Source: Armatimonadota bacterium (GTDB lineage: Bacteria > Armatimonadota > Fimbriimonadia > Fimbriimonadales > Fimbriimonadaceae). From it: 64,000 nucleotides of DNA. Position numbers and translations under genes: made by a program. Shown here in pieces: positions 22,074 to 31,520 of the stretch; within the stretch, counting starts at the first letter, position 1, and each line of letters starts with the position of its first letter. The stretch covers positions 1,922,001 to 1,986,000 of the forward strand of contig WGMG01000006.1 of NCBI GenBank assembly GCA_016125185.1, written 5' to 3'. The notes beneath the pieces are model-generated. The model was not told the origin of the DNA. It saw only the letters and a list, made by a program, of their open reading frames with translations, and searched no databases.

Positions 22074-22185
22074 CTTCATGTTCCTCATGAGAACCCGCCC
22101 ATGTCTCCTAACCTCAAAGACGCCCCCCATACCGATGAGCGTACGCCCCGGGACTATCGGTCCAACTCCCAACCGAAAGAGGCTA

Positions 22186-22276
22186 GCACTCTGCACTCTG
22201 CACTCTGCACTCTGCACTCTGCACTCTGCACTCTGCACTCTGCACCCTGTGCTCTGTGCTCTGTGCTCTGTGCCCT
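22186..22276. repeat. Heptanucleotide tandem repeat between csp and tgt
   Basis: Thirteen 7-base units run without a break: eight GCACTCT, one GCACCCT, three GTGCTCT and one GTGCCCT. They sit in the divergent promoter region 33 bp before tgt and 112 bp before the Cys-rich gene. Such arrays can change length by slipped-strand mispairing and so alter promoter spacing. Confidence 0.95.
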
Positions 22277-25007: not shown

Positions 25008-25889
25008 ATGATAGTTTGGCTGGTCATCGTCCTAGGAATCTTGTATTTACTCCTGCTCCTGGGCGTTGCCTACTGCTTCGTCTTCCCTTTCCGCACCCCC
25101 ATTTTCATTTCCCCCGGCTTCCTCGGGGTTCCACAAGAGTGGATTGAATTCGAAGATTCCGGCACCGGACGCCTGCTCCGAGGATGGTGGGTGCCAAAAG
25201 AGGATCCCGAAGTCGTCATGGTCTGCGCCCACGGCTACATGATGAACCGAGCCGAACTCGCTCCCTTCGCGCCCCGATTCCAAAACTGGCCGATCGCCTT
25301 CCTCTTCTTCGACCTCCCTGCCCACGGCGCGTCCCGAGGGCGAAAATCGGGGTTCGGCTACAAAGAGCGAACCGCCGTCGCATCTGCCGTCGCCGAAGCC
25401 AAGCGCCGCTACCCAAACGCCAAGATCGTCCTCGCTGGGTCGAGCATGGGGGCCGCCGCTAGCGCCTTCGCCCTTGCCGAGTCGCCCAATCTCGCCGACG
25501 CCCTCATTCTAGATTCCTGCTACGACCGCCTCGTTGAAGCGATCACCGGCTGGTGGCTCTTCATCGGCGGCAAAACCCTCCAGTACGTCCTCTACCCCGC
25601 GTCCTTTTTCGGTATGCCCCTCTCCGGCGTCAATCCCTTTCGCATTGTCGTGTCCTCCGCGCTGGCCAAAATCGCCAAGCCAACGCTGATTCTCCACGGT
25701 GGAGCCGATACCCTCGCCCCGCCGTCGGCCGCCAAAACCAACTTTGACGCCCTCGCGGGGCCAAAATCTATGGTCATTTTCGATGGCCGCAACCATTCCG
25801 AAGCCCGGTGGGAAGAGCCCGATCGCTACTTCGAAGCCATCGAAGCTTTCCTGCAGGAAAACGGATTAGCCGACCATCGGTCAAAATAG
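25008..25889 (+). CDS. Membrane-anchored alpha/beta hydrolase
   Basis: 293 residues. An N-terminal membrane segment (about 2-24) precedes a serine-hydrolase fold: oxyanion-side VCAHGYMMNRAEL, nucleophile elbow LAGSSMGAAAS (Ser near 146), Asp in ILHGGADTLAPPSAA and His in FDGRNHSEARWEEP. It resembles bacterial serine aminopeptidase/BAAT-like esterases. The substrate is not inferable. The gene is followed directly by the 540 bp repeat array, with no terminator recognised. Confidence 0.8.
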   Translation: MIVWLVIVLGILYLLLLLGVAYCFVFPFRTPIFISPGFLGVPQEWIEFEDSGTGRLLRGWWVPKEDPEVVMVCAHGYMMNRAELAPFAPRFQNWPIAFLFFDLPAHGASRGRKSGFGYKERTAVASAVAEAKRRYPNAKIVLAGSSMGAAASAFALAESPNLADALILDSCYDRLVEAITGWWLFIGGKTLQYVLYPASFFGMPLSGVNPFRIVVSSALAKIAKPTLILHGGADTLAPPSAAKTNFDALAGPKSMVIFDGRNHSEARWEEPDRYFEAIEAFLQENGLADHRSK

Positions 25890-26429
25890 GTTCAAGTCGC
25901 GATGCCAGTCGCCGCCATCTGGCAAACCAGAATGGAGGCTTCTCCCGATAGGATCCACCCAGAGTAGCGCTAATAAAGATGCTTCTCTGGATAGAGAAGC
26001 CGGTAAGTGAGCTTGCGAGCGAACCGGATGAGACGAACCTCTCGCCAACCCAAGACTCAAGATAACTTCTTAAGTCGCAATGCCATTGGCCGCGATCCGG
26101 CAGGACGGTGTCTACTTGGATTGATGCCCAAAGAGATACTTCTCTGGATAGGGTCAACCTACAGTGGCGCCAAAAACAAGATGCTTCTCTGGATAGAGAA
26201 GCCGGTAAGTGAGCTTGCGAGCGAACCGGATGAGACGAACCTCTCGCATACTTCGAGCTGACCTAGGTCAAATTAACTCCTAAGTCGCGATACCGCGAAA
26301 TGCCATCCGGCAAACCAAAGAAGATGCTTCTCCGGATGGAGAAGCCGGTAAGCGAGCCCGCGAGCGAACCGGATGAGGCGAACCTTTCGAAAGCGTTCGG
26401 GCTGATGTAGGTCAAAATAAGGTCAAACA
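25890..26429. repeat. Array of three structured repeat units
   Basis: Nothing codes here. A 69 bp core occurs at 25977-26045, 26179-26247 (identical) and 26322-26390 (diverged). Each core has hairpin CTTCTCT-GGAT-AGAGAAG, then CCGGT...ACCGG closed around GAGC..GAGC, then GAGA/TCTC. In copy three the first stem is CTTCTCC/GGAGAAG, a compensated T-A to C-G change. Cores one and two are preceded by a related 35 bp module (25938-25971 and 26137-26170) and every unit by AAGTCGC near 25893, 26071 and 26282. Unit length is 140-210 bp. It could be a structured RNA or a mobile palindromic repeat. Confidence 0.75.
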
Positions 26430-27341
26430 ATGCCGCGAGTCTCCATTCTGCTAACCTGCTACAACCACAAGAAGTACATTCCGGTGGCCCTAGACAGCAT
26501 TCGCGCGCAGACCTTTACCGATTACGAAATCATCGCCCTCGACGATGGCTCCACCGACGGCACCCGCGAATGGCTCGCCGACCAAACCGGAATCAGGGTG
26601 GTTTTCAACGAGCAGAATCTCGGCACTTACGGCACCCTCAATAAGGGCCTCGACTACGCCACCGGCGAGTACATCGCCGTCTTTAATGACGACGACGTCT
26701 GGATGCCCACCAAGCTCGAAAAGCAAGTCGCCCTCCTCGATTCCAACCCAAAAGTCGGCCTTGTCCACACCGAAGGCGAGTTCATCGACGGTGAAGGAAA
26801 CATCATGGAAGGCGAACCTCTCGGATTCAAATTCCCCCGTTTCGAAACCGGCGATATCCTCCTCGACCTCGTCTACGAAAACAAGGTCATCGCCTCCGCC
26901 GCCCTGTTCCGTCGAAGTATCGTCGACGAGATCGGCGGCTTCAACGAGTTCTACTTCGGCTCCGGAGACTGGGAGATGTGGTTCCGAATCGCCGAACGCT
27001 ACGACGTCGGATGCGTCAACGAAAAGCTGAGCCAGTACCGCGTCCACGGCGCGAACGCCTCCCACAAGCTCGAAAAGATTTGGCGCGACGACGAACGCCT
27101 ACGCGACTGGATGATCCCGCGCCTCGAAGACCTCGGCGATCGCTTTCCAAAGGAGAAGGTCCAAGCCGCCATCGCCCACTGCTGGGCCGCTCTCGGCACC
27201 GTCCGAATGCTCAACGGCGACGCTCGCTCAGCCCGCGCCGCCTACCGAGCCAGCATGCACGTCATGCCCGGTCGAATCAAGAATTACCTCCGCTTTGCCG
27301 CCACTTTCGCGGGCAAAAAGGTCTTCCGCAAACTGCTTTAG
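26430..27341 (+). CDS. Glycosyltransferase family 2
   Basis: 303 residues with a GT-A domain: PRVSILLTCYNHKKYIPVALDSIRAQTF, ALDDGSTDGT, the DxD-type FNDDDVWMPTKL near 94 and GSGDWEMWFRIAERYDVG with the acceptor-site ED-like DWEMW. The C-terminal 70 residues are helical. There is no membrane span, so it probably acts at the cytoplasmic face on a lipid-linked or protein acceptor. The gene directly follows the repeat array. Its stop overlaps the convergent PEP-CTERM gene by four bases. Confidence 0.87.
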   Translation: MPRVSILLTCYNHKKYIPVALDSIRAQTFTDYEIIALDDGSTDGTREWLADQTGIRVVFNEQNLGTYGTLNKGLDYATGEYIAVFNDDDVWMPTKLEKQVALLDSNPKVGLVHTEGEFIDGEGNIMEGEPLGFKFPRFETGDILLDLVYENKVIASAALFRRSIVDEIGGFNEFYFGSGDWEMWFRIAERYDVGCVNEKLSQYRVHGANASHKLEKIWRDDERLRDWMIPRLEDLGDRFPKEKVQAAIAHCWAALGTVRMLNGDARSARAAYRASMHVMPGRIKNYLRFAATFAGKKVFRKLL

Positions 27342-29645: not shown

Positions 29646-30257
29646 TTACTTGCTGGTTCGACGTCGTCTAACGAGCGCCAAAGCGCCAATGCCGAGGACG
29701 GCGAGGCTCGCCGGCTCTGGAACGGAGTCGATCGTCAAGTTGTCGAGTTGAAAGCCGGAGACCGTGCCGAGACCGCCCGAGCCATTGTCCATCACCGTAA
29801 TGCTATCCAGATTCGTAAACGATCCGTCTAGCATAAACGTCTGCCACTGGTTGGTAACGTTAAAGACCTGCGAAGTGGTACCGCCGCCCTCGTAGTTTCC
29901 GACGACCGTGATTGATCCGGTTGCGAAGGTGCCATCAAAAACCGCCGAATCAAAAGACTCCATCGAGAACGGTGCATCGGATATGGGCTTAAAGTTCACA
30001 CTGCCCGTTGCTCCATTGTTATCGTCTCCAATAGCTGCCAACGTGACGCTTCCATCTTGCACGCGCCCCGAGCCGGTGTAGCTGTCTGTCAGGATTCCCC
30101 AACCTCCAGCCGAAAAGTTAAAGTTGTATCCCTCGGACACGAGCGGGTTATCGAATTGATCGGATGTGATGTCCTCGAAGTCGATGACGGTTGCCGACGC
30201 GATCGCCGGAAAGACAAGCAAAGCTGAGCCCACTGCCACTAGTAGAATTTTTTTCAT
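29646..30257 (-). CDS. PEP-CTERM secreted protein, tandem paralogue A
   Basis: 203 residues from ATG 30257. It has a signal peptide (about 1-22, ending ASA) and a beta-sandwich domain opening TVIDFEDITSDQFDNPLVSEGYNFNF and containing FDSAVFDGTFATGSITVVGNYEGGGTT. The tail is VPEPASLAVLGIGALALVRRRRTSK. It is clearly paralogous along its whole length to the protein at 30464-31072. The domain resembles lectin-like or galactose-binding jelly rolls seen in PEP-CTERM proteins. The two genes are separated by 206 bp and each probably has its own promoter. Confidence 0.85.
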   Translation of the reverse strand: MKKILLVAVGSALLVFPAIASATVIDFEDITSDQFDNPLVSEGYNFNFSAGGWGILTDSYTGSGRVQDGSVTLAAIGDDNNGATGSVNFKPISDAPFSMESFDSAVFDGTFATGSITVVGNYEGGGTTSQVFNVTNQWQTFMLDGSFTNLDSITVMDNGSGGLGTVSGFQLDNLTIDSVPEPASLAVLGIGALALVRRRRTSK

Positions 30258-30463
30258 GTTGATTCCCAAAGTCTTCTCACTCAATCGAGCGAACAAATCA
30301 CAGTATAGGGAAACGAAATGAATCCGTCGACCCGGCAAATATGCTGGGTGGAACACGGAAGGAGGCTAAACCAAGGCAGTTCCGCCTACCATCCCGAAGC
30401 ATATTCAAACTAACCCTATACCGAGGTGGATGAGTTTTTAGCCCCATCCACCTGGTCGCATAC

Positions 30464-31072
30464 TTACTTGCTGGTTCGTCGTCGAACGAGCGCTAAAGCG
30501 CCAAGTCCGAGAACGGCAAGGCTCGCCGGCTCCGGAACGGTGCCGTTGATGGCGATATTGTCGAGCTGGAAGCCAGGACCTGAATCAAAGTCGCTCGTAT
30601 TGAGGTCGACAACTGTAACGCTCTGCAGGTTGGTAAACGTACCATTCAAAGCGAACGACTGCCATTGATTGGTGATTGAAAAGTCCTGAACCGTGGTGCC
30701 ACCACCGACGAAGTTGCCGATGAACTCGATCGAACCCGTAGCAAACAGACCAGTGAAGACGGCCGAATCAAATCCTTGGACCGAAAATGGCGCGCCTGAG
30801 TCCGTGCTGAAGGTGACCTGAGCGTTCGTGAAGTTTCGCGGGCCAGCCAAGAACAGCGTCGAAGTTCCATTCTGAACTCGATCAAACGAGGTGTAACCAT
30901 CGGTGGCGATAGCCCAACCTTGTGCGTCGAAGTTGAAAGTGAATCCCTCAGAGGGAATCGGATTTCCGAACTGGTCTGCCGTAATGTCTTCAAAGTCCAG
31001 CATGTCTGCCGAAGCGAACGACGAAAGAGAAAGCGCGGCAAGGCCGACTGCCCCAACTAAGAGTTTCTTCAT
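30464..31072 (-). CDS. PEP-CTERM secreted protein, tandem paralogue B
   Basis: 202 residues from ATG 31072 (MKKLLVGAVGLAALSLSSFASA signal). It shares with paralogue A the blocks DFEDIT-DQF-NP, SEGF-FNF, FDSAVF-G-FATGSI and GGGTT, the NQWQ-F--G-FTNL block and GFQLDN, plus a nearly identical sorting tail VPEPASLAVLGLGALALVRRRTSK. This indicates a recent tandem duplication. A non-essential upstream extension of the frame to 31138 is rejected. Function unknown. Confidence 0.85.
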   Translation of the reverse strand: MKKLLVGAVGLAALSLSSFASADMLDFEDITADQFGNPIPSEGFTFNFDAQGWAIATDGYTSFDRVQNGTSTLFLAGPRNFTNAQVTFSTDSGAPFSVQGFDSAVFTGLFATGSIEFIGNFVGGGTTVQDFSITNQWQSFALNGTFTNLQSVTVVDLNTSDFDSGPGFQLDNIAINGTVPEPASLAVLGLGALALVRRRTSK

Positions 31073-31349
31073 AGATATCTCCCAAAAGTTCCGCACACAA
31101 TTGTGCGAACAAGCCAAGTATATCGCGCGGGTAACCATTTTGTAAGTTGCCTATCGGAAACGATGCGGGGCGAATGACCCATTCCAACGGGTGGCACGGT
31201 CAGCGACCACTTCCCGCTTGCGGGATGGGAGTTGGCCGTGTGACAAGGACCTCACCATCCCTCGAAACGCGCCAACCAGCAAGCAACCAACCTCAACATT
31301 CCTAAGAAAATTAGGTTCTTCCCCCAACCCCTCCCGCCCACCCAGCAAC

Positions 31350-31520
31350 AGTGCCATACTGGTTACCGTGTGAAGGATCGATCGCCTTGATCGATCTGAA
31401 AATTGGGGAAAGCTGGTGGAACTCCAGCGCTGTGCCGCAACGGTAAAAGTCCGAATGCCCACTTCGCACAAAAAGCGCATCGCCCACGAGCATGGGTCGG
31501 ATGATGGTTGGGCGATTCCC
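31350..31520 (+). promoter_or_regulatory. Cobalamin (B12) riboswitch
   Basis: The conserved core GGGGAAAGCTGGTGGAAC (31405-31422), TCCAGCGCTGTGCCGCAACGG (31423-31443) and GTAAAAGTCCGAATGCCC follow the cobalamin riboswitch pattern (GGxGAA, CGCTG, CCGCAACxGTAA, then a B12-box-like AGTCCGxAxGCC). An ATCGCCCA/TGGGCGAT pair (31479-31516) lies beyond the core and could be the expression platform, either a terminator or a sequestering stem. The first start codon (31573) is about 55 bases downstream. Ligand class cannot be told by eye. Confidence 0.85.

Follow-up and report, generated by a model that had tools for sequence, protein, structure and literature searches.

The window, that is, the whole stretch of 64,000 nucleotides analysed here, carries an array of three structured repeats between an alpha/beta-hydrolase-like gene and a GT2 glycosyltransferase-like gene, and this raises the question of what kind of element these repeats are. 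The preliminary description had proposed a non-coding RNA family, a leader for the GT2 gene or a palindromic mobile element. Its starting observation is real: two cores of 70 nt are identical, the third is 89% identical to them, and a compensatory change separates CTTCTCT/AGAGAAG from CTTCTCC/GGAGAAG. As set out below, the three repeats are probably copies of a small, non-autonomous mobile element of DNA, the purine-rich single strand of which would fold as an intramolecular purine-motif (class II) triplex.

Layout of the array in the window

The features of the array are as follows, the flanking genes being named from sequence motifs and from the preliminary description.

25008–25889: flanking gene, alpha/beta-hydrolase-like
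25894–25906, 26072–26084 and 26282–26294, + strand: common 5′ block AAGTCGCGATGCC
25934–25971, + strand: degenerate 5′ half module ahead of unit 1
25976–26045, + strand: unit 1, core, identical to unit 2 over 70 nt
25982–25988, + strand: unit 1, pyrimidine arm CTTCTCT
25993–25999, + strand: unit 1, purine arm AGAGAAG
26001–26026, + strand: unit 1, structured linker CGGT..ACCG, containing tandem G.A mismatches and an inner hairpin
26027–26033, + strand: unit 1, putative third strand GATGAGA, a triplet-compatible mirror of the purine arm (7/7)
26132–26172, + strand: putative 5′ half of a unit variant with a long hairpin, immediately ahead of unit 2
26178–26247, + strand: unit 2, core, identical to unit 1
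26184–26190, + strand: unit 2, pyrimidine arm
26195–26201, + strand: unit 2, purine arm
26203–26228, + strand: unit 2, structured linker
26229–26235, + strand: unit 2, putative third strand GATGAGA
26321–26390, + strand: unit 3, core, 89% identical
26327–26333, + strand: unit 3, pyrimidine arm CTTCTCC
26338–26344, + strand: unit 3, purine arm GGAGAAG
26346–26371, + strand: unit 3, structured linker
26372–26378, + strand: unit 3, putative third strand GATGAGG, altered along with the stem pair (T-A to C-G)
26430–27341: flanking gene, GT2 glycosyltransferase-like

The 5′ AAGTCGC block described earlier indeed occurs three times (starting at 25894, 26072 and 26282), a sign of local tandem duplication, by which the array probably grew. 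The extra module seen in two of the units was likewise found, at about 25934–25971 and 26132–26172, and by comparison with C6:447034-447140 it looks like the 5′ half of a unit variant with a long hairpin. Such a composite, with a long-hairpin 5′ half fused directly to a complete unit, recurs at C6:446864 and C6:1915968 of genome G000 and at 26132–26178 of the window. Simple repeats (AACTCCCAACTCCC, CTCTGCACT and CAAGCCG) adjoin several units, and short repeats of CTCTGCACT type also stand in tandem at about 22100–22260 of the window, within an ORF reading ...ALCTLHSALCTLHSALCTLH.

A large dispersed repeat family

The preliminary description had suggested a covariance-model search of this genome and its relatives, and this search showed the core to be dispersed. 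In the source genome, 19 copies were found by blastn, at least 84 by a covariance model built from 17 blastn copies, and at least 91 by a second model ending before the tail. Within the genus, 8 of 20 genomes carry units, with at least 85, 51, 23, 7, 7, 2, 1 and 1 copies, and across the phylum Armatimonadota units were present in 22 of 291 genomes. A pattern search of named genomes placed the family in Armatimonadota (Fimbriimonas and relatives) and, outside this phylum, on one contig each of a Bradyrhizobiaceae MAG and an Inquilinus MAG; the plasmid and phage collections searched gave no match to the units. The repeats of the window are thus copies of a large dispersed repeat family.

Anatomy of the unit

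Each unit reads, in order, NNGAT, a base R, the pyrimidine arm, a short loop, the purine arm, and a base Y that pairs with R, followed by the linker CGGT-GA-hairpin-GA-ACCG and then a purine tail. The linker, which is itself structured, is 26 nt long in the window units and ranges from 17 to about 60 nt across the family. Both stems covary strongly, with a covariation score reached in none of 500 shuffles, and in stem 2 the covariation supports the outer pairs only (model R1). This second stem, drawn previously as CCGGT/ACCGG, does exist, but it is better drawn as CGGT/ACCG because its first C pairs with the G preceding CTTCTC, where G-C to A-T covariation is seen in the family. The third stem of the preliminary description (GAGA/TCTC or GAGG/TTTC) can be drawn in the window units but does not hold family-wide, being possible in 16 of 126 units versus 17 when the downstream bases are shuffled, and the bases then assigned to it make up the third strand of the proposed triplex. 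Energy-based DNA folding recovered stem 1 and not always stem 2, and a triplex lies beyond such models. A G-quadruplex was considered and rejected, since arms such as GAGAAG would offer no G runs. One triplex-compatible unit (L125, at about 2951) has a different linker, GTCC..GGAC, and the arms CCTCCC/GGGAGG, which suggests that further linker classes exist.

The tail follows a triplet rule

When the tail is read outwards from the linker, it is a mirror of the purine arm in a fixed register, with arm/tail pairs such as GAAGAG/GATGAG, GGAGAG/GGTGAG, AGAGAG/AGAGAG, GGGGAA/GGGGAT, AGGGAA/AGGGAT and GAGGGG/GTGGGG, among others. We tested the rule of antiparallel purine triplexes (G·GC, A·AT and T·AT, that is, G faces G, and A faces A or T) on units gathered blind to the tail, by model R2 without the tail together with a tail-blind scan. 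The rule was obeyed at 721 of 756 positions (95.4%), compared with a mean of 531 (70%) and a maximum of 567 after shuffling, and registers slid by one to three bases gave a fit of 27–56%. Other relations of the tail accounted for fewer positions: a direct repeat for 42%, Watson-Crick pairing with the 3′ arm for 12%, and Watson-Crick pairing with the 5′ arm for 42%, or 69% when G-U was allowed. All six of six triplets were found in 110 of the 126 units, and the runs extend over 6–10 triplets. The excess also appeared in within-genome shuffles, none of 1000 of which reached the observed value in any of three genomes (G000, 402/420 vs 290; G009, 217/222 vs 171; G155, 191/198 vs 174). To guard against relatives being counted repeatedly, the arm types were permuted; with a single tail counted for each arm type, the tally of 64 of 72 was reached once in 100,000 permutations (mean 45).

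The composition of the cells and the extent of the runs agree with this rule. As counted from the tables, T stands opposite an arm G in 4 of 478 cells and opposite an arm A in 87 of 278; the latter fits the purine motif and does not fit a pyrimidine triplex on the other strand. The triplet run tracks the stem length, 7 going with 7 in 71 of 88 units and 10 with 10 in 8 of 9. In the window, the seventh pair is T-A with tail A in units 1 and 2 and C-G with tail G in unit 3, and across the family T-A goes with tail T or A in 32 of 34 cases and C-G with tail G in 21 of 25. The tail base thus follows the seventh pair, and what had been read as a compensatory change is a triple change. The three strands co-evolve in 13 arm types and in several genomes, and in the literature searched we found no report of third-strand covariation of this kind. 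As a polymerase cannot template mirror repeats, gene conversion or slippage would fail as an explanation, and the match between arm and tail would have been reached through separate changes and then kept. From these sequence relations, we infer that the units fold as intrastrand DNA triplexes of class II.

Insertion sites and mobility

According to home-made gene calls, 106 of 119 tested units (about 90%) are intergenic, compared with 15% of random positions. The remaining 13 overlap predicted genes, not all of them on the strand of the gene or away from gene ends. The earlier statement that no coding frame explains the repeats is correct within the window array, although some copies elsewhere are in frame inside genes. 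The in-frame copies on the strand of the gene mostly share one reading frame, D-T/A-S-P-D-G-E-V-G-E. Genes named from sequence that contain in-frame units are TrmD (unit L093), alanyl-tRNA synthetase (AlaRS; L041), a class II ribonucleotide reductase-like gene (L009), a polyprenyl synthase-like gene (L079) and an MFS transporter-like gene (L144); unit L203 lies in a Maf-like gene on the opposite strand.

At the TrmD site, most other genomes of the genus have a few residues only, and in two (G018 and G001) the extra sequence is a different one. At the AlaRS site, a unit is also present in G009, other extra sequence in G002, and little or none in most others. The extra sequences at TrmD in two genomes and the G009 unit at AlaRS indicate that both sites tolerate insertions, and both insertions contain other sequence besides the unit. 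AlaRS also has a further insertion of roughly 80–90 residues, at residues ~464–556 (L041 / L357; G000 C1 ~334140-334416), which takes a different form in G002 and is missing from most other genomes; no triplex unit was found within it.

Neighbouring units less than 1 kb apart are overrepresented (24 vs 2 expected), as are inverted pairs in the head-to-head arrangement (8 vs 1). Together with the high copy number, the patchy distribution and the in-frame insertions into conserved genes, this clustering and pairing bears out the earlier suggestion of a palindromic mobile element, and the units have evidently moved.

Hypervariable loops in long-linker units

In long-linker units, unique, mutually unrelated and G-poor loops of ~19–31 nt are set in near-identical stems. 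Eight units of G009 (L179, L187, L189, L191, L192, L193, L205 and L206) share the same arms and linker stems and carry unrelated loops of 19–26 nt, and four further long-loop units lie in G000 (L045, L046, L049 and L053). Across 13 loops, G makes up 12%. Searches of three genomes and of the local neighbourhood turned up no convincing match to the loop sequences, and on this ground their reading as guides or copies of host DNA was rejected. One explanation is that the loop is renewed at every move. It is conceivable, as a tentative extension of the mobile-triplex reading, that the single-stranded triplex fold is itself the mobilisation signal, that many arm types are competent for the triplex, and that long-linker copies gain a unique G-poor loop of ~24 nt per move.

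Comparison with known repeats

The names BoxC, PIT and TM_ECO all refer to a single class II triplex repeat, known from enterobacteria and others (Hoyne et al. 2000; Holder et al. 2015, PMC4666352). Its oligonucleotide forms a triplex in vitro and the repeat is located in unstable loci, and in vivo DMS footprinting of the E. coli TM elements gave no stable triplex (PMC4666352). Like that repeat, the present family has pyrimidine, purine and reverse-Hoogsteen blocks in this order on a single strand, with an antiparallel third strand, purine-motif triplets (G·GC, A·AT, T·AT) and stems of at least 6. Both are also intergenic, occur in inverted pairs, differ greatly in copy number among near relatives, and have no known enzyme. 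In contrast, the present linker is structured and at least 17 nt (up to about 60 nt) in the parsed units, beyond the loops of 0–10 or 1–6 nt allowed in published triplex searches, which the family would therefore escape. Since this limit is a search setting, it makes the family a poorer fit to the set already published but does not bear on the mechanism. The family also differs in having 13 co-evolving arm types with 6–10 triplets instead of one G/C-rich consensus of 9 triplets, in having some copies in frame inside genes, and in its host, Armatimonadota. The TM_ECO / BoxC consensus CCCTCNCCC N3-6 GGGNGAGGG N3 GGGNGAGGG does not match the window units, which have CTTCTC/GAGAAG/GATGAG and a 26-nt linker. 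One copy of the source genome (C13:595-666), with the arms CCCTCTCC/GGAGAGGG, a hairpin linker and the tail GGGTGAGGGG, looks intermediate. Judged by its predicted architecture, the family belongs within the class II triplexes, of which it would be a new variant by consensus and linker.

Rickettsia palindromic elements (PMC10969869, PMC3733652) resemble the present units as small palindromes that also occur in frame within unrelated genes and in head-to-head pairs, with no dedicated transposase known. The present units differ in lacking the terminal CGTC tag, in having another structure and in being mostly intergenic, and a triplex is not mentioned for the Rickettsia elements (PMC10969869, PMC3733652). 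REP/REPIN sequences with RAYT (PMC3116915, PMC3733652) are similarly dispersed intergenic hairpins in dimers and clusters, mostly downstream of genes, whereas the present units lack the GTAG tag, do not adjoin RAYT genes, and have a third strand in addition.

Proposed mechanism and alternative explanations

In the mobile-triplex reading, the pyrimidine and purine arms would pair as a hairpin of 6–10 bp, the structured linker CGGT-GA-hairpin-GA-ACCG would reverse the strand direction, and the purine tail would run antiparallel along the hairpin's major groove, giving the triplets G·GC, A·AT, T·AT. The triplex might arise in transient single-stranded DNA, such as a replication, repair or transposition intermediate, and a trans-acting enzyme might recognise the fold and then copy or move the element. 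Against this, duplex DNA competes with the triplex, and stems of 6–7 triplets, some of them A-rich, are shorter than the 9-triplet TM_ECO for which melting was measured.

Were the units a structured non-coding RNA or a cis-regulatory leader, with hairpins acting in transcripts and the tail joining an RNA structure, the compensatory changes in two stems and the modest stability of the RNA fold of the unit would be explained. We consider this very unlikely: the orientation to co-directional genes is random (24 same, 25 opposite), the flanking genes are 43 convergent, 49 co-directional and 10 divergent (n=102; home-made gene calls), and Rfam gave no match at the gathering threshold nor at E 10. 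Moreover, the tail fits a purine-motif triplex, a structure reported as unable to form in RNA (PMC4666352), better than it fits Watson-Crick pairing with the 5′ arm. The narrower proposal of a leader for the GT2 gene fails on 14 GT2 orthologues of the genus, all of which lack both the array and the upstream gene seen here. It is scarcely credible that the tail resembles the arm merely through purine richness or the binding of both by one protein; all these strands are purine-rich, but shuffling the tails among units cuts the fit from 95% to 70%, and a protein reading two sites would be expected to leave direct or inverted repeats, not a mirror in fixed register, and would not permit A facing T yet exclude G facing T.

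Two alternatives concern how the units spread or why they are kept, and each is improbable to a similar degree. The units could be GTAG-type REP or REPIN sequences moved by a RAYT (TnpA_REP) of the same genome, a view favoured by the 13 Y1_Tnp (Y1 transposase) genes of the source genome, by a weak correlation between unit and Y1_Tnp counts in 20 genomes (rho 0.53, p 0.017, without correction for kinship), by the head-to-head pairs, and by one G000 unit lying 234 nt from an IS200-like gene (C2:500385). Arguing against it, one unit in 126 has a GTAG or CGTC tag next to its hairpin, and G004, G019 and G003 have Y1 genes and no units. No transposase was found flanking units, and the absence of units from 40 Y1-transposase neighbourhoods in the unit-rich G009 and G002 rules out a RAYT/IS200 linkage in cis in these two genomes; a Y1 enzyme might act in trans. 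Alternatively, a replication-arrest or instability element might be retained for its effect on the chromosome instead of its own spread, in line with related TM_ECO triplexes that mark unstable loci and PIT elements that block polymerase in vitro (PMC4666352). The patchy distribution, with units missing in 12 of 20 congeners, and the TrmD and AlaRS insertions look like selfish spread, not host function. The mobile triplex-forming element is the reading we retain.

The in-cell role of bacterial intrastrand triplexes (BoxC/PIT) has been a question since 2000, as oligonucleotides fold whereas in vivo footprints do not show the triplex. A third strand that covaries with both hairpin strands offers comparative evidence for a selected three-stranded form, of the kind on which RNA structures have been established, and evolutionary signs of this kind that triple-helix DNA matters in living cells are rare. 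The family supplies testable units, and a simple scan permitting long structured linkers should reveal more.

Other features of the window

On the minus strand at 29646–31138 lie two adjacent ORFs, the products of which end in PEP-CTERM-like motifs (VPEPASLAVLG..RRR), and an AdoCbl-II (cobalamin) riboswitch was found at 31393–31465 on the + strand, with a score of 51.5 bits.
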